A program made the translations under genes and the position numbers. The notes under the pieces were generated by a model, which did no database searches, was not told the DNA's origin, and worked only from the letters and a program-made list of their open reading frames with translations. DNA of 33,387 nucleotides, taken from NCBI GenBank assembly GCA_015065425.1, contig SVQH01000031.1, forward strand, positions 2,517-35,903. The letters are read 5' to 3'. The DNA comes from Oscillospiraceae bacterium. GTDB lineage: Bacteria; Bacillota; Clostridia; Oscillospirales; Acutalibacteraceae. Below, piece by piece: positions 1-20,532 of this stretch (position 1 is the first letter of the stretch; each line of letters starts with the position of its first letter).

Positions 1-506
1 AGAAGTGCTTTTTATGGTTGTACTTCATTAACGAGTTTGACAATACCAAATACCGTTACCACTATTGATAATTCAGCCTTTTATGGCTGTTCGAGTATTA
101 CAAGTTTAACAATCGGAAGTAAAGTCACTTCTATTGGTTTCGAGGCATTCCGAAATTGCACAGGATTGAAAAGTGTAAGTATACCTAATAGTGTAACAAG
201 TATTAGTACAAATGCTTTTAGAGATTGCACAAGAATTACTTCTGTCACAATGGGAACGGGTTTAAGCGAAATCCCGGAGCGTTGCTTTGCCGGATGTAAG
301 AGTTTGGAAACTGTGAGTATTGGAGCGAATGTTATCAATATAGGTATATCTGCATTTGATGATTGTCCCGCATTGAGTACAATCAACTGGGGTTCACAAT
401 TAAAGAGTATTTCAAGAAGTGCTTTTTATGGTTGTACTTCATTAACGAGTTTGACAATACCAAATACCGTTACCACTATTGATAATTCAGCTTTTTATGG
501 CTGTTC
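1..506 (+). repeat. Near-identical 92-bp direct repeat inside the LRR region
   Basis: Bases 1-92 recur at 415-506 with one difference, C78 versus T492. The offset is 414 bp, exactly six 23-codon LRR units, so the reading frame is kept. Near-identity at silent positions points to recent duplication or gene conversion, because the other LRR units have diverged in DNA sequence. Confidence 0.9.
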
Positions 507-2175
507 AGGTATAAGGGAATTGACAATTGGTGATAAGGTTACATCAATAGGATATGAAGCGTTTAAATATTGTACAGGATTAAAAGAGGTTGTGATCCCT
601 GAAAAAGTAACTGGTATTGGTGGACATGCCTTTGGTTATTGTGACAATATTGCAGAAGTGTATTTTCCGGCAAGTTTGCAGACCGTTGGTAGTTATGCTT
701 TTAACGGCTGTGAAGGTATAACCGATGTTTATTACGAGAGCAGTGAAAGCGATTGGGGATATGTAACTATTGAAAAAGGAAATGAGCCTATTACAAATGC
801 AATATTCCATGATAATTATACAGAAAAACCCACTGTTTCAATTATTTCCACTAATAATTTGGCGGTAAATCAAACTGTGACATTAAAGATGTCAGATAAT
901 GTAGGTGTCGTAAGTTATTATTGGGGAATAAGCAGTTCACCGTCAAGCGGTAGTTTTACAAGCATAACAAGTGCAACGAGCAAGAGTATAACAAAGACTG
1001 TATCTGATGCAGGTACATATTATTTGTTTGCAAAAGATGCGGTAGGAAATGTATCAACAACAGCAAGTGTAACTTTCTACAAAACAACATTCAATGGAAA
1101 TAAAGGAAGTGTTTCTCCGTCTTATGTAATTACAAAGAGCGGAAATTCCTTTAATTTACCCATGGCTTCAAGAGAAGGTTATACCTTCCTCGGATGGTCT
1201 TCAAGCAGCAATGCAACAAGTGCAGACTACTCAGCAAACAGCAGCTATAAACCGACGGGAACAAAAACACTATATGCAGTATGGGAAAAAGTTCCTGAAC
1301 CTATAGTTCTGAAATCTATTGAGGTATATACTAATCCTACAAAAACAATCTATTACATAGGTGATTCACTTAATACAAGTGGACTGACAATTAAATTAAT
1401 TTACAGTGATGATTCAACAGAAACTCTTACAAGCGGCTTTGCTGTGAGCGGGTTCAACTCTTCAACAGCGGGAACGAAGACTGTTACGGTAACTTACAAA
1501 GGAAAAACAACTACTTTTAATGTAACAGTTACAGAGCCGGTTATTGAAAGTGATGCGGTGATATCTGTAACTTCCGCTACCGGCAGAGCAGGTAATCAGG
1601 TAAGCGTGAATATTGTTTTATCGGAAAATCCCGGTGTCACATCAATGCTTTTATCTGTTGATTTTGATGAGGATGTACTCAGACTTGTTAATGTAACAGA
1701 TGCCGGACTTCTTGGTAGTGCTTTCCACAGTAATAATTATTCGTCACCCTATTCATTAAGTTGGGCAAATGATACTGCCACAAGCAACTTCACTGTGAAT
1801 GGCAGTATTGTAACATTGACATTTGAGATTCTTGACAGTGCCGAAGCCGGCGAAACGGCTATTTCTGTAAATTATGATTACAATAACTATGATATTATTG
1901 ACAAGGATCTTAACAGAATCAGCTTCGCAACAAAAGCCGGTAAAATAAATGTTACGGATGTTATTATAGGCGATGTAAACGGAGATGGAACCGTGAATAC
2001 TCTTGACAGAGTTATCCTTACAAGATACATAGCAAACTGGACAGAGTATATTGCAGATGATATTAGTCTTGATGCCGCAGATGTTAATGCTGATGGTGTC
2101 GTCAATACTCTTGACAGAGTGATCCTTACCCGTCATATTGCAAACTGGAGCGGATATGAATCCCTGCCATACTAA
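1..2175 (+). CDS. Secreted LRR / Ig-like / cohesin / dockerin protein, 5' partial
   Basis: The reading frame is already open at base 1, so the N-terminus and any signal peptide lie outside the window; the ATG at 37 is inside a repeat and is not the start. Codons 1 to about 270 are BspA-type leucine-rich repeats (LRR_5) of 23 residues with the pattern C-x2-L-x2-L-x-IP-x2-V-x2-I-x3-AF. After them come an Ig-like segment (about nt 820-1080), an InlB/Listeria-Bacteroides-type repeat ending YAVWE (about 1087-1290), a group 3 bacterial Ig domain (about 1309-1530), a cohesin-like domain (about 1555-1955) and a C-terminal dockerin (1966-2172) with two calcium loops, DVNGDGTVNTLD and DVNADGVVNTLD. Such proteins are usually extracellular and bind other proteins or carbohydrate surfaces. 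The cohesin closely resembles the one in the next gene. Ligands are unknown. Confidence 0.9.
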   Translation, partial: RSAFYGCTSLTSLTIPNTVTTIDNSAFYGCSSITSLTIGSKVTSIGFEAFRNCTGLKSVSIPNSVTSISTNAFRDCTRITSVTMGTGLSEIPERCFAGCKSLETVSIGANVINIGISAFDDCPALSTINWGSQLKSISRSAFYGCTSLTSLTIPNTVTTIDNSAFYGCSGIRELTIGDKVTSIGYEAFKYCTGLKEVVIPEKVTGIGGHAFGYCDNIAEVYFPASLQTVGSYAFNGCEGITDVYYESSESDWGYVTIEKGNEPITNAIFHDNYTEKPTVSIISTNNLAVNQTVTLKMSDNVGVVSYYWGISSSPSSGSFTSITSATSKSITKTVSDAGTYYLFAKDAVGNVSTTASVTFYKTTFNGNKGSVSPSYVITKSGNSFNLPMASREGYTFLGWSSSSNATSADYSANSSYKPTGTKTLYAVWEKVPEPIVLKSIEVYTNPTKTIYYIGDSLNTSGLTIKLIYSDDSTETLTSGFAVSGFNSSTAGTKTVTVTYKGKTTTFNVTVTEPVIESDAVISVTSATGRAGNQVSVNIVLSENPGVTSMLLSVDFDEDVLRLVNVTDAGLLGSAFHSNNYSSPYSLSWANDTATSNFTVNGSIVTLTFEILDSAEAGETAISVNYDYNNYDIIDKDLNRISFATKAGKINVTDVIIGDVNGDGTVNTLDRVILTRYIANWTEYIADDISLDAADVNADGVVNTLDRVILTRHIANWSGYESLPY

Positions 2176-2196: not shown

Positions 2197-4068
2197 ATGA
2201 AACGAGTTTTAAGAAAATTCGCAGTACTATTGATGACTGTAGTGTTTTTGTTTGGTGTAGTATCTGCACAACCGTCTGTATTTGCCGCTACACCTTCAAT
2301 CAGTGTTGAAGAGACACAAGGGTATGCGGGGGAGAATGTTGATGTTAAAATATCACTCAAAAACAATCCCGGCGTTACATCGGTTTTGCTGAAGATTACT
2401 TTTGACAGCAGTAAGCTTGAACTCATCGGTGTTACTGACGCAGGAATCTTAGGCAGTCAATTCCACAGCAATAACTACAACAGCCCGTATACATTGTCAT
2501 GGGCAAATGACACAGCAACAACAAACTATACCGGAAATGGCACAATTGCTACATTAAGATTTCGTATTTCTTCATCATTGGAATCAAACCGAACGATTCC
2601 GATTTCTGTAAGCTATGATTATTACAATTATGATATCATTGATAAGGATTTGAACAAAATCAGTTGTGCTACTACAAACGGATCGGTAAAAGTAGTAAAT
2701 AAAAATGTGGCTGTGCAAGACGTTGGCTTACAAAAACTTTCGGCAACACTGGTAGTTGGTGAAAGTATTGTTCTTAATCCTATAATATATCCTTCAGATG
2801 CGACAGACAAAAGAGTGACCTGGAGCAGTGATAATTCAAATATTGCGACAGTTGATGAATACGGCAATGTGAGAGCTGTTGCTCCGGGTAGTACGTATAT
2901 TACCGTTACTACGGTTTCGGGTGGATATCAGGAGACGTGTTTCGTCAAGGTTCTGCCTTCTGAAAATCCCGAATGTTACGGTATGTATATATCAAGTGAA
3001 GGAAAAACTCGTTACTATATAGGTGATGAATTGGATACAAGTTCAATGATACTTTATATTGATAAAGACGGAAGGGGACTTTATAACACAAAAGTTACCG
3101 AAGGTTTTACCGTCAGCGGTTTTGATTCTTCAACTCCCGGAAAAAAGACATTGACGGTAACATATAAAGGTTTTACGGATACTTACGAGATAGAGGTACA
3201 TAAGCTTCTCGGTATCGAAATATCACGTAATCCTTATACGACAACTTACTTTGTAAATGAAGATTTTGACCGTGACGGACTTGAAATTACTGCTTACTAT
3301 ACCGGGGGCTATTCATATAAGACCGAACAGAACTTAACTCTGTCAGGTTTTGATTCTTCGACACCCGGTATAAAAAAGATTACTGTCGAGTATAAAGGAA
3401 AAACTGCTTCATTTACGGTAGATATAAAAGAGGCTTTACCTTTGTATATGAAACAGACAATAAGCGGAGATGAACTTATTGTTTCCTTGAATATCAAAAA
3501 TGCTAAAGGCATAGGCTCAGGAGATCTCGATTTGTATTATGACGATGAAATATTTACCTTTATGACACTTGAGACTTCATCACGCGGCAAACTTGATGCA
3601 TCTGAAGATGTGGAATCTGACGGCTCGGGAATTTATGGCGTTGACGGTGATTCGTATGCTGTTGCAGTAGGTTCGTACAGGAATGGTAAGCGTTCAGTTG
3701 CGTTTGTGTTTATGAGCTGGTCGAGTATTAATTCCGATGATTTTGAAATATGCAGTATCAGATTCAAAATTAACGAACTGAATGCCGGTAAGCAGCAAAT
3801 TAGAGTTATTTCAAAAAATACGTATATTGCAGATGCATCGGTAAGTGTTAATCTTAATTTTGAACCCGAATATATTCTCGGAGATTTAGATTTTGACGAC
3901 AGCATCACTTCGGCAGATGCCCGTCTTGCTCTCAGAGCTTCGGTGAATCTTGAAAAGCTCAGTGAGTTGCAGTTTCTTGCAGCTGATGCAGACGGTGACA
4001 GTGCAATTACTTCCGCAGATGCAAGATTGATACTTCGTGCATCGGTAGGTCTTGAATCATTTTCATAA
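2197..4068 (+). CDS. Secreted cohesin / Ig-like / dockerin protein
   Basis: The 623-residue protein starts at ATG 2197, with GGGAGA seven bases upstream. It opens with a Sec signal peptide (basic MKRVLRK, hydrophobic core, probable cut after VFA near residue 30). Domains in order: a cohesin-like domain (about 33-165), a group 2 bacterial Ig domain (about 172-250, containing VTWSSDNSNIATVD), two group 3 Ig domains (about 258-335 and 336-412, both with SGFDSSTPG), a second divergent cohesin-like region (about 413-550), and a C-terminal dockerin (about 553-623) with paired SADARL motifs. It begins 21 bp after the previous gene and shares its cohesin (HSNNY, SWANDTAT), so the two look like a tandem paralogous pair. 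Having cohesin and dockerin on one chain suggests a scaffold or adaptor role; this is inference. Confidence 0.88.
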   Translation: MKRVLRKFAVLLMTVVFLFGVVSAQPSVFAATPSISVEETQGYAGENVDVKISLKNNPGVTSVLLKITFDSSKLELIGVTDAGILGSQFHSNNYNSPYTLSWANDTATTNYTGNGTIATLRFRISSSLESNRTIPISVSYDYYNYDIIDKDLNKISCATTNGSVKVVNKNVAVQDVGLQKLSATLVVGESIVLNPIIYPSDATDKRVTWSSDNSNIATVDEYGNVRAVAPGSTYITVTTVSGGYQETCFVKVLPSENPECYGMYISSEGKTRYYIGDELDTSSMILYIDKDGRGLYNTKVTEGFTVSGFDSSTPGKKTLTVTYKGFTDTYEIEVHKLLGIEISRNPYTTTYFVNEDFDRDGLEITAYYTGGYSYKTEQNLTLSGFDSSTPGIKKITVEYKGKTASFTVDIKEALPLYMKQTISGDELIVSLNIKNAKGIGSGDLDLYYDDEIFTFMTLETSSRGKLDASEDVESDGSGIYGVDGDSYAVAVGSYRNGKRSVAFVFMSWSSINSDDFEICSIRFKINELNAGKQQIRVISKNTYIADASVSVNLNFEPEYILGDLDFDDSITSADARLALRASVNLEKLSELQFLAADADGDSAITSADARLILRASVGLESFS

Positions 4069-6044: not shown

Positions 6045-6063
6045 TTTACGGAGGTAAATGATT

Positions 6064-7215
6064 ATGAAAAAAGTTTTATGTGTTCTTCTCTCTGTCGTAA
6101 TGGTACTTTCTTGTGCTGTTATCGGTATTGCTGCTGAAGAAGAAAAGGTACTGAAGTTCAATGAAGACGGAACTTTCAAAATTATGCAGATAAATGATTC
6201 ACAGGATATCGGTAAGGGTGTTAACGGCAGAATGGTAGAATTTATAGAAGCTGCTCTTGATAAGGAACAGCCCGACCTTGTTGTTTTTGTCGGCGACCAG
6301 CTTTCCGATTTCTATCCCTTCGGAACAAAAGAGGATATGATAAAGTCCATTGATAATATTATCTCTCCTCTTGCTGAAAGAAACATTCCTTTCCTTGTAA
6401 CACTCGGAAATCATGACCACGATCATTTTGATAAATTCAGCAAGGCAGAGCAGTTTGCTGCTTATTCTTCTTATGATAACTGCTATATGCCCACTGACGG
6501 TTGGGATGAATTTACCGTAAATGCTCCCATTCTTACCTCTGACGGCGAAAGCGTTGCAATGAGCATATTCATGATGAATACTCACAATAAGGCTGAATCA
6601 GGCGGTTATTCAGGTGTCGTTGCTGAACAGAATACATGGTATGAAGAAGTAAGTGCAGAACTTAAGGCAGCCAACGGCGGCAAAAATGTTCCCTCTATGG
6701 TATTCCAGCACATCCCTCCCAAAGAAATTTATTCTCTTCTTGAAGTATGTTCATGGAATGACGACGGTGCTGTTTATTCACAGCTTGACGGAAACTGGTA
6801 TAAGATTGATGAAACCAAGGCAGAAGGTTATCTCGGTGAAGCTCCCTGCAGTGAAGATTTTGACAATATCACAGGTCAGTATCAGTCATGGGTTGCTACC
6901 GGTAACATTATGGGTGCTTTCTTCGGACACGACCATGTAAATAACTTTGTAGGCACAACGGATGATGGCATCGTCATGGGCTACAACGGCGGTACAGGCT
7001 TCCGTGCTTATGGTGTCGGTGACGGAAGAAGTGTAAGAGTGTTTGAATTCAACGAAAACGACGTTGAAAACTATGCTACAAGAAGTCTTACATATAAAGA
7101 AATAGTAGGCAAAGATGTTAATATCATAATAAGCGACGTCTTTTCTCCCACCCTTCTTACAGACATCATGAAGATAATTTACTTTTTCTTCGGATGGCTT
7201 ATTGACATGTTTTAA
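6064..7215 (+). CDS. Secreted calcineurin-like metallophosphoesterase
   Basis: This 383-residue protein starts with a signal peptide (MKKVLCVLLS onward, probable cut near GIAA at residue 24). The metallophosphoesterase motifs appear in order: D45-S-Q47 in MQINDSQD, GDQLSD at about 77, GNHDHD at about 115, a histidine in VFQHIPP, and FFGHDHVN near the C-terminal part. These residues bind two metal ions and hydrolyse phosphoesters; the overall look is of the purple acid phosphatase/Dcr2-like group. The first motif is DxQ where most relatives have DxH or DxG. The C-terminus ends in a hydrophobic stretch (IIYFFFGWLIDMF) that could hold it at the membrane. ATG 6064 is preferred over ATG 6058 because GGAGG at 6050-6054 is only three bases from the latter. 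The substrate is unknown. Confidence 0.85.
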   Translation: MKKVLCVLLSVVMVLSCAVIGIAAEEEKVLKFNEDGTFKIMQINDSQDIGKGVNGRMVEFIEAALDKEQPDLVVFVGDQLSDFYPFGTKEDMIKSIDNIISPLAERNIPFLVTLGNHDHDHFDKFSKAEQFAAYSSYDNCYMPTDGWDEFTVNAPILTSDGESVAMSIFMMNTHNKAESGGYSGVVAEQNTWYEEVSAELKAANGGKNVPSMVFQHIPPKEIYSLLEVCSWNDDGAVYSQLDGNWYKIDETKAEGYLGEAPCSEDFDNITGQYQSWVATGNIMGAFFGHDHVNNFVGTTDDGIVMGYNGGTGFRAYGVGDGRSVRVFEFNENDVENYATRSLTYKEIVGKDVNIIISDVFSPTLLTDIMKIIYFFFGWLIDMF

Positions 7216-14733: not shown

Positions 14734-14985
14734 TTATTCAAACAGGACATTGATTTTTTCAGAACATTTTCTGCATACTTTTTTGTCCTTGTATCCTATG
14801 AGGTCTTCCATTCCCTGACAGAAAATGCAGGCAGGTTCGTATTTTCTTAAAATTATCATGTCGTCTTCTACAAAAATTTCAATAGCATCTTCCTGTGAAG
14901 TAAGATGAAGTTTTTTTCTGAGTTCCATCGGAAGCACAAATCTGCCGTTTTCGTCAAATTTTCTTACAAAACCTGTTGCATTCAT
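14734..14985 (-). CDS. AbrB/SpoVT-type regulator with C-terminal zinc ribbon
   Basis: This 83-residue protein begins MNATGFVRKFDENGRFVLP, the swapped-hairpin AbrB DNA-binding domain that resembles AbrB, Abh and the N-terminal part of SpoVT. The C-terminal half carries a probable zinc ribbon, CIFC near residue 53 and CRKC near 72. Such proteins act as dimeric or tetrameric transition-state or sporulation regulators. The start ATG 14985 is fixed by AAGGAGAA just upstream and by the family N-terminus; the frame runs open further upstream but those extra residues are not conserved in kind. It is transcribed alone, away from spmA. The target genes are unknown. Confidence 0.9.
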   Translation of the reverse strand: MNATGFVRKFDENGRFVLPMELRKKLHLTSQEDAIEIFVEDDMIILRKYEPACIFCQGMEDLIGYKDKKVCRKCSEKINVLFE

Positions 14986-15019
14986 GCCTATTCTCCTTAG
15001 TTTATGTTTTTTCATGTAA

Positions 15020-15048
15020 AAAATAACATATTTTACCATATTTGTCAA
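15020..15048 (-). promoter_or_regulatory. Promoter for the AbrB-type regulator
   Basis: On the minus strand, TTGACA (15043-15048), a 17-bp spacer, and TATTTT (15020-15025). Confidence 0.6.
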
Positions 15049-15132: not shown

Positions 15133-15708
15133 ATGATGAATTATGTGTGGGCTTTAATGATAGCCTTTTCTTTTGTATGCTCAATATTTACGGGGAATAC
15201 GGGCGGTCTGTCCAAAGGTATTCTTGATGGGGCTGTAAATGCGGTAAATATTGCCCTGAGACTTCTCGGAACTATGTGTCTGTGGAACGGCCTTATGGAA
15301 ATAGCCGTAAGCTCAGGTCTTACAAGGTTGACTGACAGAATACTTTTTCCCTTTGTCAAGCTTATTTTTCCTAAATATGCAAAAACCGATGCCATAACGG
15401 CTGTTAGTGCTAATATCACAGCTAATCTTCTGGGGCTGGGTAATGCCGCAACACCTCTGGGAATTGAAGCCATGCGGCGGATGAAAAATGCATCGGGAAG
15501 TACTTATGCGGACAGTGAGATGATTCGTTTTGTAATAGTTAATTCAGCCGCACTGACCCTTATCCCCACAAGTGTAAGTGCAATGAGAGCTACTGCCGGC
15601 AGTGAAGCTCCCTTTGCAGTTCTTATTCCCGTATGGTGTACGGGGATAACGGCTCTTATTGCGGGGCTTATTATGGAAAAACTGTTGTCAAAAAGGTGGA
15701 AAAAATGA
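15133..15708 (+). CDS. spmA: Spore maturation protein SpmA
   Basis: This 191-residue membrane protein has the SpmA hallmarks: MNYVWALMIAFSFVCSIFTG, LLGLGNAATPLGIEAMRRM, and VNSAALTLIPTSVSAMRA. It acts with SpmB in spore core dehydration and coat or cortex maturation. Two adjacent ATGs (15133, 15136) are possible starts and neither has a clear ribosome site. Its stop overlaps the spoIID start (ATGA), so translation is probably coupled. Its usual partner spmB is not next to it; in its place stand spoIID and a D-Ala-D-Ala carboxypeptidase, both also sporulation-related. Confidence 0.93.
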   Translation: MMNYVWALMIAFSFVCSIFTGNTGGLSKGILDGAVNAVNIALRLLGTMCLWNGLMEIAVSSGLTRLTDRILFPFVKLIFPKYAKTDAITAVSANITANLLGLGNAATPLGIEAMRRMKNASGSTYADSEMIRFVIVNSAALTLIPTSVSAMRATAGSEAPFAVLIPVWCTGITALIAGLIMEKLLSKRWKK

Positions 15709-16703
15709 AAAAATATCTGATTTTGTCAATTATAAGTGCACTTTGTGTAATAATAACCCCTGTGGGTATGTACGGGACAGGTAAGAACAGAAGAGAAACG
15801 ATGTCTTATTCTGTCAGCGATGACGGTAACATACAGAATATGGGAAATGCTGTTATGGAAGATATTGTAAGAGTCTTTAATTCAGAAACAGATACGGTGA
15901 TGGAGCTGAATTTCAGAGACTATATCATAGGTGTCGTTGCAGGGGAGATGCCTGTGGAATTTCACAGTGAGGCTTTAAGTGCAGGTGCTGTTGCCGCCGC
16001 AACACTTACAAGAAAAAAAATGAGTACCCTCAGTGACGGAGCACTTTCCGAAACAGTAATATCCACAGATCCTGCAAAGCATCAGGCATATATGGCAACT
16101 GATGAGATGAAGGAACGCTGGGGTGAGAATTTTGAGGAATATTACAAAAAGCTCTGTGATGCCGTAGATGCTTCAATAGGATATAATATTGTATATGATG
16201 GTGAAATCATAACAGCGGTATATCACTCGGTAAGTACGGGGCTTACAGAGAATGCACAAAATGTCTGGGCGGGAGCTGCCCCCTATCTTGTGAGTGTAGA
16301 AAGTGAGGGGGATGTGTATTCTCCGAAATATGCCTCTTCATTGGAGGTTTCCTTTGACGAATTCAGACGCTGTCTTACCGAAAACGGTGCCAAGCCTTCA
16401 GAAGATAACTCTGTGCTTATAAGTTCTGCCGAATATACCGAAGCAGGAAGAATTAAGACAATAACTGCAGGAGGAAAAGAGTTTACCGGTGAGCAGTTTC
16501 GTCAGATGTTTTCTCTTCGTTCGGCTGCCGTGACTTATGAAATTACCGACAGCGGCATTATTCTTGATGTAAAAGGATACGGGCACGGTGTCGGTCTGTC
16601 TCAATACGGGGCAGATTATTATGCAAGACAGGGAATGACCTGGCAGGAAATAATAAAGCACTATTATACAGGCGTGGACATAGTTCCCGTAACAATGGGA
16701 TAA
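15705..16703 (+). CDS. spoIID: Stage II sporulation protein D (SpoIID/LytB domain)
   Basis: This 332-residue protein starts at ATG 15705, overlapping the spmA stop, with AGGTGGA just upstream. A single N-terminal membrane segment (about residues 3-22) is followed by the SpoIID domain: FRDYIIGVVAGEMPVEFHSE and, at the C-terminus, GYGHGVGLSQYGADYYARQG and IIKHYYTGVDI. SpoIID is a lytic transglycosylase that cuts denuded glycan strands during engulfment of the forespore, with SpoIIP and SpoIIM. A SpoIID paralog with a different hydrolase role is possible, because Clostridia often encode several. Confidence 0.9.
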   Translation: MKKYLILSIISALCVIITPVGMYGTGKNRRETMSYSVSDDGNIQNMGNAVMEDIVRVFNSETDTVMELNFRDYIIGVVAGEMPVEFHSEALSAGAVAAATLTRKKMSTLSDGALSETVISTDPAKHQAYMATDEMKERWGENFEEYYKKLCDAVDASIGYNIVYDGEIITAVYHSVSTGLTENAQNVWAGAAPYLVSVESEGDVYSPKYASSLEVSFDEFRRCLTENGAKPSEDNSVLISSAEYTEAGRIKTITAGGKEFTGEQFRQMFSLRSAAVTYEITDSGIILDVKGYGHGVGLSQYGADYYARQGMTWQEIIKHYYTGVDIVPVTMG

Positions 16704-16771: not shown

Positions 16772-16803
16772 GAATTCCGACATTTTATTTAACGGTGAAG
16801 AAA

Positions 16804-17916
16804 ATGAAAAGTTTAAGAAAGTCATTTTTTGTTTTTGTTGCGGTTCTGGTTCTTTTTATATCGGCGGTAATTCCTGTTTCTGCAATTACAGGTTATGAGC
16901 AGAAGCTTCAGAATTTTACGGCAGATATGAAAGCCGCCATGATAATCGATGTGACAAATGAGAATGTAATATACAGTAAAAATGCCGATTCCAAAATAGC
17001 TGTTGCAAGTACTGCGAAGCTTGTGACCTCTCTTGTGGCTCTTAAGTATATCGATCCGGAGCAGGTATTTACGGTAGGAAAAGAACTTGAGCTTGTAAAA
17101 CCCGGTTCAAGTCTCTGTCTTATAAAAGAGAGGCATCAGCTTAAGCTTAAAACCCTCATAGCAGGTATGCTCGTTCCTTCCGGAAATGATGCTGCCTATA
17201 CCGTAGCCGTAAATGTTGCACGGACAGTCGCAAAAAATCCGAAAATGACAGATACAGAGGCAGTAAATTATTTTTCTGCTCTCATGAATACATATTGCAG
17301 AGATATTGGCTGTAAGAATACAAATTTTGTTTCTCCTGAGGGCTGGGATGACCCTAAAAACTATTCCACCGCTCATGATATGAGCCTTGTTGCCCGTGAA
17401 GCACTTAAAAATTCGGTAATTACCACGATAACATCCACGTACAGCAGAAGATATTATTTTGCTTCAGGTGAAAATATTGTCTGGTCAAATACAAATGAGC
17501 TTCTTTCTCCCGGCGGCGAGTATTATTATCCTTTTGCAATGGGACTTAAGACAGGCACTACGGATGCTGCGGGCAGATGCCTTATTTCCGCTGCTATTAA
17601 GGGTGGAAGACAGATCTTGATACTTGCTTACGGTTGTCCGTATGAAACGGGAGATAAGGAAAAGGAAAAAGCTGTCATTTTCGGCAATACAAGAGATATA
17701 TTCAACTTTATATTCAATGCACCCACAAACGGAGATGTGGACCTCAGCGGAGATATATCCTCTGCCGATGCAAGAATAGTGCTCAGAGCCTCTGTAGGAC
17801 TTGAAGAAATAACTGATGTTCTTCTTAAAAGAGGCGATGTTGACAATGATAAGACAATTTCTTCCGCTGATGCACGTATTATTCTGCGTGTTTCGGTAGG
17901 ACTTGAATCTCTGTAA
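16804..17916 (+). CDS. D-alanyl-D-alanine carboxypeptidase with C-terminal dockerin-like domain
   Basis: The 370-residue protein has a signal peptide (cut near PVSA, residue 27) and an S11 peptidase domain: SxxK as S69-T-A-K72, SGN in VPSGNDAAY, and KTG in GLKTGTTDAAG. The enzyme removes the terminal D-alanine from peptidoglycan stem peptides; relatives such as DacB and DacF act on spore cortex. The usual C-terminal beta domain of PBP5-type enzymes is missing. From about residue 310 there is instead a dockerin-like pair of calcium loops, DVDLSGDISSADA and DVDNDKTISSADA, with ILRVSVGLESL at the very end. ATG 16804 or GTG 16795 could be the start; GGTGAAG lies at 16794-16800. It follows spoIID at a distance of about 100 bp. 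Confidence 0.9.
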   Translation: MKSLRKSFFVFVAVLVLFISAVIPVSAITGYEQKLQNFTADMKAAMIIDVTNENVIYSKNADSKIAVASTAKLVTSLVALKYIDPEQVFTVGKELELVKPGSSLCLIKERHQLKLKTLIAGMLVPSGNDAAYTVAVNVARTVAKNPKMTDTEAVNYFSALMNTYCRDIGCKNTNFVSPEGWDDPKNYSTAHDMSLVAREALKNSVITTITSTYSRRYYFASGENIVWSNTNELLSPGGEYYYPFAMGLKTGTTDAAGRCLISAAIKGGRQILILAYGCPYETGDKEKEKAVIFGNTRDIFNFIFNAPTNGDVDLSGDISSADARIVLRASVGLEEITDVLLKRGDVDNDKTISSADARIILRVSVGLESL

Positions 17917-19530: not shown

Positions 19531-20469
19531 TTATCCTACTGTGATTACTGTTGTTATTTCTTCAGGCTCCGTTATAACCGTCGGTTCGGGTGCTTCGGTT
19601 GAAGGTGTTTCCTGAACTGCGGGAACGGAAGCATCTTCGTAAACAGAGGTTATGCCGTAATATTCCTCAAGGCAAAGACCGCTGTTGTAGATTTTTTCTG
19701 CAACTTCAACACCCACATATCTTATGTGCCAGGGTTCGTACATATATCCCGTCTGAGCTTCCTTATCCTTGGGATAACGGAGAATGAAGCCGTAACGCCA
19801 ACAGTTTTCCTCTACCCATTTTCCTTCTGCGGTGTTTGCGAAGGAAGACGTTATCTCATTGAGGTCAATGGCAAGACCTGTCTGATGCTCGGAATGTCCG
19901 GGACGGGCTGAATATCTGTCTGCGGCTTCTTTGCCGTCACGGTTAGAATATCTTGTGTAAAGACTGCTCTGAAGCTCATAAGAACGGAAACCCGATGCAT
20001 TCCAGATGGAAAGACCGTTTGAGGATGCGGCATCTCTCATCTGAGAGAAAGCCGATGCACATTCACTGAGAAGGTCTCCCGGGTTATAACTTGCAGGAAG
20101 TGCATAAGTTTTGTTTGCTACAAGAATACCGTCAACATAGGTTATTCCGTTTTTAACTGTAATGGGATAGCCTTTGGATGTATATCCCACCAGTTCACCG
20201 TCAATGGAGGGAACAGAATTTCCGCTTTGATTTGTTGTTTCTTCAATATCTGAAGATGGGGAATTTGGGTCTACGGGTTCTCCGGGAAGCAGAGGTTCAC
20301 CCTGATACAGGTTATTGTTCTGATTTTCCTGTGATGCCACGGAAGTTATCTCCTCTGAAGTATTTTCGGCTGTGGTTATCTCATCAAAGGAAGGGATGGT
20401 GTGGCAGGAGGTAAGAAAAAGTCCTGCACTGATAAGTGAAAGAAAAAGTGCTATGCGGTATTTTTTCAT
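19531..20469 (-). CDS. VanY-type D-alanyl-D-alanine carboxypeptidase, lipoprotein
   Basis: The 312-residue protein starts at ATG 20469 and has a lipoprotein signal ending in the lipobox LTSC (Cys22). A Ser/Thr/Asn-rich linker of about 100 residues separates it from the M15B peptidase domain with NASGFRSYELQ, the zinc site GHSEHQTGLAIDL and EPWHIRYVG. These are the metal ligands and catalytic residues of VanY/DacB-type zinc carboxypeptidases, which trim the terminal D-alanine of peptidoglycan. No other vancomycin-resistance gene is nearby, so a cell wall maintenance role is likelier than resistance. The C-terminus adds a Thr/Glu/Pro-rich tail. The ribosome site is AAAGGAAA. Confidence 0.92.
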   Translation of the reverse strand: MKKYRIALFLSLISAGLFLTSCHTIPSFDEITTAENTSEEITSVASQENQNNNLYQGEPLLPGEPVDPNSPSSDIEETTNQSGNSVPSIDGELVGYTSKGYPITVKNGITYVDGILVANKTYALPASYNPGDLLSECASAFSQMRDAASSNGLSIWNASGFRSYELQSSLYTRYSNRDGKEAADRYSARPGHSEHQTGLAIDLNEITSSFANTAEGKWVEENCWRYGFILRYPKDKEAQTGYMYEPWHIRYVGVEVAEKIYNSGLCLEEYYGITSVYEDASVPAVQETPSTEAPEPTVITEPEEITTVITVG

Positions 20470-20503
20470 GATGTGATTTCCTTTATTAAAATAATACAGC
20501 CCT

Positions 20504-20532
20504 ATTATAGTCCCTAAAAAATATGATGTCAA
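20504..20532 (-). promoter_or_regulatory. Promoter for the VanY-like gene
   Basis: On the minus strand, TTGACA (20527-20532), a 17-bp spacer, and TATAAT (20504-20509). Confidence 0.75.

Follow-up and report, generated by a model that had tools for sequence, protein, structure and literature searches.

A dockerin-bearing S11 carboxypeptidase encoded beside SpoIID and its candidate lipoprotein cohesin receptor encoded downstream of rpoD in Oscillospiraceae

The stretch of DNA analysed in our study, called the window here, is 33,387 nt long (Oscillospiraceae bacterium GCA_015065425.1, contig SVQH01000031.1, positions 2,517-35,903 of the forward strand; its genome is designated G000). It encodes P0001, a putative secreted D-Ala-D-Ala carboxypeptidase of the S11 family whose C-terminus is, on the evidence of its structural model, a genuine two-loop dockerin. 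The 'plug and socket' of plant-fibre degradation has probably been reused here to keep wall enzymes of the bacterium itself at its surface. The explanation that we moderately favour is that a non-cellulosomal dockerin system tethers wall enzymes, P0001 included, to the membrane via a lipoprotein cohesin linked to rpoD. Its extension to the whole genus is quite possible but advanced only tentatively: the lipid-anchored cohesin of the rpoD operon would provide a housekeeping attachment that takes up 9-63 dockerin proteins per genome, replaces lipidation in two D,D-carboxypeptidase families and possibly operates in the spore cortex.

The carboxypeptidase and its C-terminal module

Going by its sequence, P0001 would be a secreted D,D-carboxypeptidase. 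Its reading frame starts with the ATG at 16804 (an in-frame GTG lies at 16795), and its signal peptide was assigned by reading the sequence rather than with a prediction tool. The STAK, SGN and KTG motifs, which an earlier note made from the DNA alone had described as intact, were found at residues 69, 126 and 249 in a transpeptidase-like fold, within a Peptidase_S11 (PF00768) match over residues 39-271 with an E-value of 1.9e-40. The chain is kept at full length in four congeners with 51-59% identity and is hence not a chance frame. Its nearest solved relative by sequence is Bacillus subtilis DacB (3mfd), which is third among the Foldseek matches. No PBP5 C-terminal domain was found in P0001 by Pfam at E 0.01, in agreement with the missing beta domain noticed earlier; however, this is not a peculiarity of P0001, since the domain is missing from the rest of the short S11 subfamily as well.

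For the dockerin the Pfam evidence was borderline, in contrast to the clear peptidase match: Dockerin_1 (PF00404), covering residues 310-360, reached 20.0 bits in the protein scan and 23.6 bits in the genome scan against a cut-off of 22.9. The module is nevertheless accepted because its predicted fold matches dockerins. Both AlphaFold models, that of the whole chain (mean pLDDT 92.6) and that of the dockerin alone (92.7), display a helix-loop-helix-loop-helix arrangement, in which two calcium loops of 12 residues each (311-322 and 345-356) are followed by helices at 320-330 and 354-364, the two F-hand loops of a type I dockerin. When the dockerin alone was submitted to Foldseek, the 31 top-ranked PDB matches were dockerins, with TM-scores of about 0.7-0.9 and E-values that are modest given the shortness of the domain (best 8.3e-4). 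The top structure was 8ajy, in which the ScaH dockerin of R. flavefaciens was solved together with a cohesin; the cohesin chain carries the name 'Cell-wall anchoring protein'. A ten-row dockerin profile matched 43 PDB sequences; eight are named as EF-hand proteins, and we take the remainder to be cellulosomal or dockerin-bearing. The two repeats of the P0001 module agree at 18 of 26 positions, making it symmetrical. The paired calcium loops that had been suspected from the sequence are thus borne out by the model.

Table 1. Positions of the features discussed; coordinates are those of the window unless a genome, contig or locus is given.
Feature	Position	Strand	Basis or remark
LRR protein, 3' part; one cohesin (~1561-1953), different dockerin type (NTLDRVILTRYI)	1..2175	+	
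Secreted protein with two cohesins (~2299-2694, ~3463-3840) and a SADAR dockerin	2197..4068	+	earlier partner candidate
AbrB/SpoVT-like regulator (presumed), divergent neighbour	14734..15048	-	presumptive name
SpmA-like membrane protein (presumed), upstream of SpoIID	15133..15708	+	presumptive name; conserved
SpoIID (stage II sporulation protein D), upstream neighbour	15633..16703	+	TIGR02870, E 5.3e-91
P0001, putative secreted S11 D-Ala-D-Ala carboxypeptidase with C-terminal dockerin, 370 aa	16804..17916	+	ORF, translation, Pfam, AlphaFold model
P0001 signal peptide, about residues 1-28, without lipobox	16804..16887	+	read from sequence; lipobox pattern
P0001 Peptidase_S11 catalytic domain, residues 39-271	16918..17616	+	Pfam; STAK 17008, SGN 17179, KTG 17548
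P0001 dockerin, SADAR type, residues 310-366	17731..17901	+	Pfam, AlphaFold, profile search, Foldseek; Ca loops 17734-17769, 17836-17871
VanY D,D-carboxypeptidase with lipobox (LTSC)	19531..20532	-	
CHAP-SH3-GH25 peptidoglycan hydrolase, C-terminal SADAR dockerin	L112:3938-5860	-	G000:C15
CotH-kinase protein (spore coat family), N-terminal SADAR dockerin	L104:6976-8541	-	G000:C43
Single-cohesin lipoprotein encoded next to rpoD, on its downstream side	G000:C49:89081-89635 (L122:6067-6639)		lipobox, Pfam Cohesin

Cohesin proteins and dockerin clients

The genome has 13 Pfam cohesin matches in 10 proteins, in none of which an LPXTG motif was found. The sole clear lipid anchor among the 10 belongs to the lipoprotein on contig C49, whose start codon overlaps the stop codon of rpoD by one base. 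This protein combines a single cohesin with a surface anchor, as the ScaE type does, but the anchor is a lipobox and not the LPXTG of that type. Another cohesin protein, of 584 residues on C1, has an ambiguous cysteine (VSSC) and its own SADAR dockerin. On contig C55 lie genes for one protein with three cohesins and for two more with a single cohesin each; a single-cohesin protein of 182 residues encoded there has a hydrophobic tail and might also reach the membrane. The LRR protein at the beginning of the window is the 3' part of G000:C37:1866-4691 and has a dockerin of another type after its cohesin; undetermined residues (XXX) in the translated LRR region of that gene indicate an assembly gap. 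In three unrelated secreted proteins (window 6058-7215, L097:4557-7202 and L079:12233-14221) a similar hydrophobic amphipathic end was seen (for example FFFGWLIDMF or FLGFLWKIVNFFCKLFK), which is perhaps another surface-attachment signal.

A cohesin protein with the same SADAR type of dockerin had been placed by the earlier note about 13 kb upstream of P0001, and it was confirmed at 2197-4068. As the partner of P0001, however, this protein has lost ground: it is secreted, has neither lipobox nor LPXTG, and carries its own SADAR dockerin, so that it looks like another client. The general idea of a cohesin tether for an S11 enzyme with a real dockerin is supported as probable, with the C49 lipoprotein as what appears, from sequence comparison, to be the better partner candidate.

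A gene of the C49 family directly follows rpoD in all 26 genomes of the genus that were analysed, with gaps of -14 to 76 bases, and the family profile, which was built from most of the same sequences, gave a match of at least 98 bits in each of them. A lipobox-like cysteine was recognised in 25 of the 26 N-termini, by eye and in some cases in an atypical form; that of G018 needs an upstream TTG start. Pfam Cohesin matched nine of ten orthologues tested at E 0.1 or better (seven over the cut-off, two below it) and was absent from the tenth. Against the PDB, the profile retrieved 33 sequences, of which 29 are by name cohesins, scaffoldins or the NagJ cohesin region and four are not. Second lipoproteins matching the profile occur at L131 (G004:C32), L153 (G020:C94), L141/L243 (G014:C21), L134/L244 (G016:C88) and L143/L245 (G021:C35), with no rpoD near them within the stretches examined, and a tandem rpoD pair lies upstream of the lipoprotein cohesin in L240 (G001:C168) and L242 (G016:C90). 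Beyond the genus, E 1e-8 was reached in only two of 33 genomes, with weak scores of 39.7 and 35.4 bits; both proteins are single cohesins with a C-terminal membrane segment (G038:C32, L236; G053:C5, L235). These two genomes bear dockerins, and the two proteins are possible equivalents of the lipoprotein receptor. All 26 genomes of the genus are rich in dockerins, with 9 to 63 matches each. Dockerin-rich genomes were also found outside the genus (for example G038 with 64 matches, G054 with 39 and G033 with 33), all of them without a C49-type receptor, so other partners must exist there.

In the genome of P0001, dockerins occupy 36 places (37 matches, one overlapping another), and 30 of these are of the SADAR type, located at the C-terminus in 15, at the N-terminus in 13 and internally in two. 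The earlier note had held that its reading would fall if the tail proved to be a common module of many unrelated secreted proteins that does not bind cohesin; the tail is indeed common, which is one half of this objection. Among the 59 SADAR repeats, position 10, which we take to be a cohesin contact of the dockerin loop, is S or A in all 59, position 21 is V in 57 and position 23 is L in 53. Position 14 is R in all 59, but it is not fully free, the class being named after DAR, and the conservation of positions 12, 13, 17 and 18 carries no weight as the search pattern fixes them.

Apart from P0001, the SADAR clients include VanY, CHAP-SH3-GH25, CotH and M28 peptidase proteins as well as a metallo-beta-lactamase fold, a phosphoesterase, and LRR and lectin proteins. 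A cellulosome, with plant-polysaccharide enzymes as clients and an anchored multi-cohesin scaffoldin, was considered and set aside. No plant-fibre glycoside hydrolase was found among the 28 of 30 SADAR proteins scanned (26 at E 1e-5 and two at E 0.01), although many SADAR proteins have no Pfam domain beyond the dockerin and may belong to unknown families. With LPXTG and the lipobox as the anchors tested, no anchored multi-cohesin scaffoldin appeared either; the C1 protein is ambiguous, and the clear lipobox is on a single-cohesin protein.

Dockerin, lipobox and gene neighbourhood

The S11-dockerin fusions in related genomes were counted, a check that had been proposed. PF00768 gave 82 match rows in the 26 genomes, corresponding to 81 genes or fragments (two rows are one gene), the frames of which were all read, and 16 dockerin-S11 proteins were found in 14 of the genomes, nine with C-terminal and seven with N-terminal dockerins. 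All 16 fall in the short subfamily without the beta domain, and none of the 52 S11 proteins of the genus with a C-terminal extension of at least 122 residues has a dockerin. Among the 25 short S11 proteins (fragments, such as G012:C60 of this subfamily and three further short S11 rows, are excluded), 16 carry a dockerin, eight a lipobox and one, G007:C125, neither; none clearly has both. Two of the eight lipoboxes (G016:C44 and G001:C15) were called by eye where the pattern had missed them, a cysteine flagged by the pattern in G010:C162 was attributed, on visual inspection, to an ordinary signal peptide, and the dockerin-S11 frames of G002:C34 and G010:C162 start at a contig edge, where a lipobox is possible.

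A similar alternation was observed in VanY, a D,D-carboxypeptidase family unrelated to S11. From 62 match rows, 32 proteins in 30 loci, the best matches to the query, were read, and 21 of them have a dockerin, nine a lipobox and two an N-terminal membrane segment, the dockerin share being inflated because the query was itself a dockerin-VanY. One lipobox (in L328) was called by eye after the pattern had missed it; in the dockerin-VanY proteins of L312 and L323 the flagged cysteine was likewise assigned on inspection to an ordinary signal peptide, and L320 starts at a contig edge. The VanY protein of the window has a lipobox, and its paralogue in the same genome, at G000:C28, bears a dockerin instead. 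Where relatives carry a lipid, these proteins carry a dockerin, which would most simply mean that lipid and dockerin bring a protein to one and the same place. When lipobox was set against dockerin, Fisher tests gave p-values of 8e-6 and 2e-6, to which no weight is given because kinship was ignored and the classes were defined once the data had been seen. For dockerin clients at large the alternation is not proven: a lipobox-like cysteine occurs in four of the 36 dockerin proteins of the P0001 genome (three of the 30 SADAR proteins), followed in each by a seemingly ordinary cleavage site.

The history of the exchange was explored with a quick S11 tree of 107 rows, in which dockerin presence needs five changes; the dockerin-S11 proteins G003:C8 and G004:C36 are not in this tree, and one row (L160, a partial sequence) was dropped. 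Constraining the two C-terminal dockerin groups to stay together improved the likelihood by 20.8 over the free search (p-AU 0.758), and a single origin was not rejected when the 14 dockerin-S11 rows of the genus were constrained likewise (p-AU 0.49). Several independent gains within the genus are weakened by these results, which is the reason why a relocation of the module is claimed and not many gains. The exchange may go back to a single old event together with a shift of the dockerin module, and the shift between the N- and the C-terminus is the one change that is certain. Loci of the R. flavefaciens group likewise encode S11 proteins whose N-terminal dockerins are of other types; the rows L165, L168, L179 and L181 were relabelled accordingly on reading, as the profile had missed their dockerins.

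The wall or spore link suggested by the earlier note has gained support from the neighbourhood of the gene. SpoIID and SpmA-like genes lie upstream of the dockerin-S11 gene in all five orthologous loci, namely that of P0001 and four in the genus (G006, G013, G017 and G019). In these four the SpmA-like protein has 61-68% identity and the AbrB/SpoVT-like gene is present as well. The names of the SpmA-like and AbrB/SpoVT-like neighbours are presumptive; for the SpmA-like product, Pfam Gate stayed below its cut-off and an NCBIfam search found nothing. In G017 and G006, the two loci with ORFs listed, a zinc-ribbon membrane protein is encoded between SpoIID and the S11 gene. The genome of P0001 encodes SpoIVA (E 7.4e-204) and is therefore likely that of a spore former, so that the gene stands beside sporulation genes, in relatives also, in a probable spore former. 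Together, the conserved SpoIID and SpmA-like neighbours and SpoIVA make a role of P0001 in the spore cortex plausible. Scans for promoters (12 found against 8.8 expected by shuffling) and terminators (5 against 2.9) were uninformative.

Proposed mechanism, alternatives and known systems

In the mechanism that we propose, P0001 would trim the stem peptides of peptidoglycan while being fixed on the outer side of the cytoplasmic membrane, or on that of the forespore's outer membrane, next to new wall or cortex. Its dockerin would replace a lipid or an amphipathic tail as the attachment, and would plug into the single-cohesin lipoprotein encoded directly downstream of rpoD. The symmetrical SADAR dockerin may attach VanY, the CHAP-GH25 lysozyme, CotH, the M28 peptidase and LRR proteins to a receptor of this kind as well. 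The domains and motifs, the predicted fold, the conserved neighbours, the alternation of lipobox and dockerin and the receptor gene in all 26 genomes are observed, whereas the enzymatic activity of P0001, its binding to a cohesin, C49 as the partner, and when and where it acts are what we infer.

The dockerin of P0001 could instead join a secreted cohesin protein, either that at 2197-4068 or one of the C55 cluster, in an extracellular complex away from the membrane. The window does encode three cohesins some 13-15 kb from P0001, and the C55 cluster adds its three-cohesin and single-cohesin proteins; yet the cohesin proteins of both places are without lipobox or LPXTG, and the swap with the lipobox argues for a membrane address. 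Moreover, the C55 query reached only 7 of the 26 genomes at E 1e-8, its own genome counted, whereas the lipoprotein cohesin as a single-protein query reached 15 at the same threshold (23 at E 1e-3; the matches are not all linked to rpoD). We regard this complex as unlikely.

It is, in our view, distinctly unlikely that SADAR serves secreted proteins as a terminal module stabilised by calcium and binds another ligand or no cohesin at all. The low Pfam scores of the module, and its presence at either end of many unrelated secreted proteins, would suit such a role, but they have to be set against the dockerin fold with its internal symmetry, the S or A at loop position 10 of every repeat and the cohesin lipoprotein present in all 26 genomes. 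The least likely of the alternatives weighed is that P0001 acts on peptidoglycan fragments outside the cell, for nutrient scavenging or against neighbours, in the manner of cellulosomal lysozymes borne on dockerins. The CHAP-GH25 protein of the same genome bears the same dockerin, and lysozyme activity is reported for the R. champanellensis cellulosome in a review (PMC6403190); the SpmA-like, SpoIID and AbrB/SpoVT-like neighbours in all five loci, however, suggest that the target is the wall or cortex of the cell itself. Tethering to the membrane through the rpoD-linked lipoprotein is hence the reading that we retain.

Dockerin-rich genomes are usually read as those of fibre degraders. If membrane tethering is true, the number of dockerins alone says little about cellulosomes, many gut Clostridia would position their own peptidoglycan enzymes by plug and socket, and a new way of keeping a carboxypeptidase at the membrane would be added. 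Further, our study gives a candidate receptor for dockerin proteins that are otherwise without one.

In B. subtilis the spore operon is dacB-spmA-spmB, and its DacB is PBP5*. P0001 is comparable to DacB in its S11 fold and its SpmA-like neighbour, whereas it has a dockerin in place of the C-terminal beta domain and amphipathic tail, and SpoIID is placed between the genes. In Clostridium perfringens the NagJ cohesin pairs with a FIVAR-dockerin, which is a non-cellulosomal use of the pair like the one proposed here, and NagJ chains are among the PDB matches of the C49-family profile. The clients of C. perfringens are secreted glycosidases, in contrast to those described above, and we know of no lipid-anchored receptor in the NagJ system.

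The closest parallels are found in R. flavefaciens, where the tethering principle is already known. Among the proteins listed for strain FD-1 (PMC2930009), one 'carboxypeptidase', whose family is not stated, and one VanY protease bear dockerins, the groups of which (6a and 6b) were deduced from column position; in that species the ScaC adaptor is the binding partner of dockerins of groups 3 and 6. The module of P0001 differs from the dockerins of these peptidases in being C-terminal, of another type and encoded beside SpoIID. Dockerin-bearing wall hydrolases are also noted in the review (PMC6403190). Neither a lipid-anchored cohesin receptor nor a SpoIID-linked dockerin carboxypeptidase was found in the titles and abstract openings listed by searches of an open-access corpus. 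According to PMC5301203, symmetrical group-4 dockerins of R. flavefaciens, including that of a peptidase, attach to ScaE, an anchor with one cohesin. ScaE is attached through LPXTG and sortase and serves a cellulosome, whereas the candidate receptor described here is a lipoprotein encoded beside rpoD, with no plant-fibre hydrolase among the scanned clients. Both systems would nevertheless have in common a single-cohesin surface protein that holds proteins with symmetrical dockerins, a peptidase among them, and a dual binding mode.
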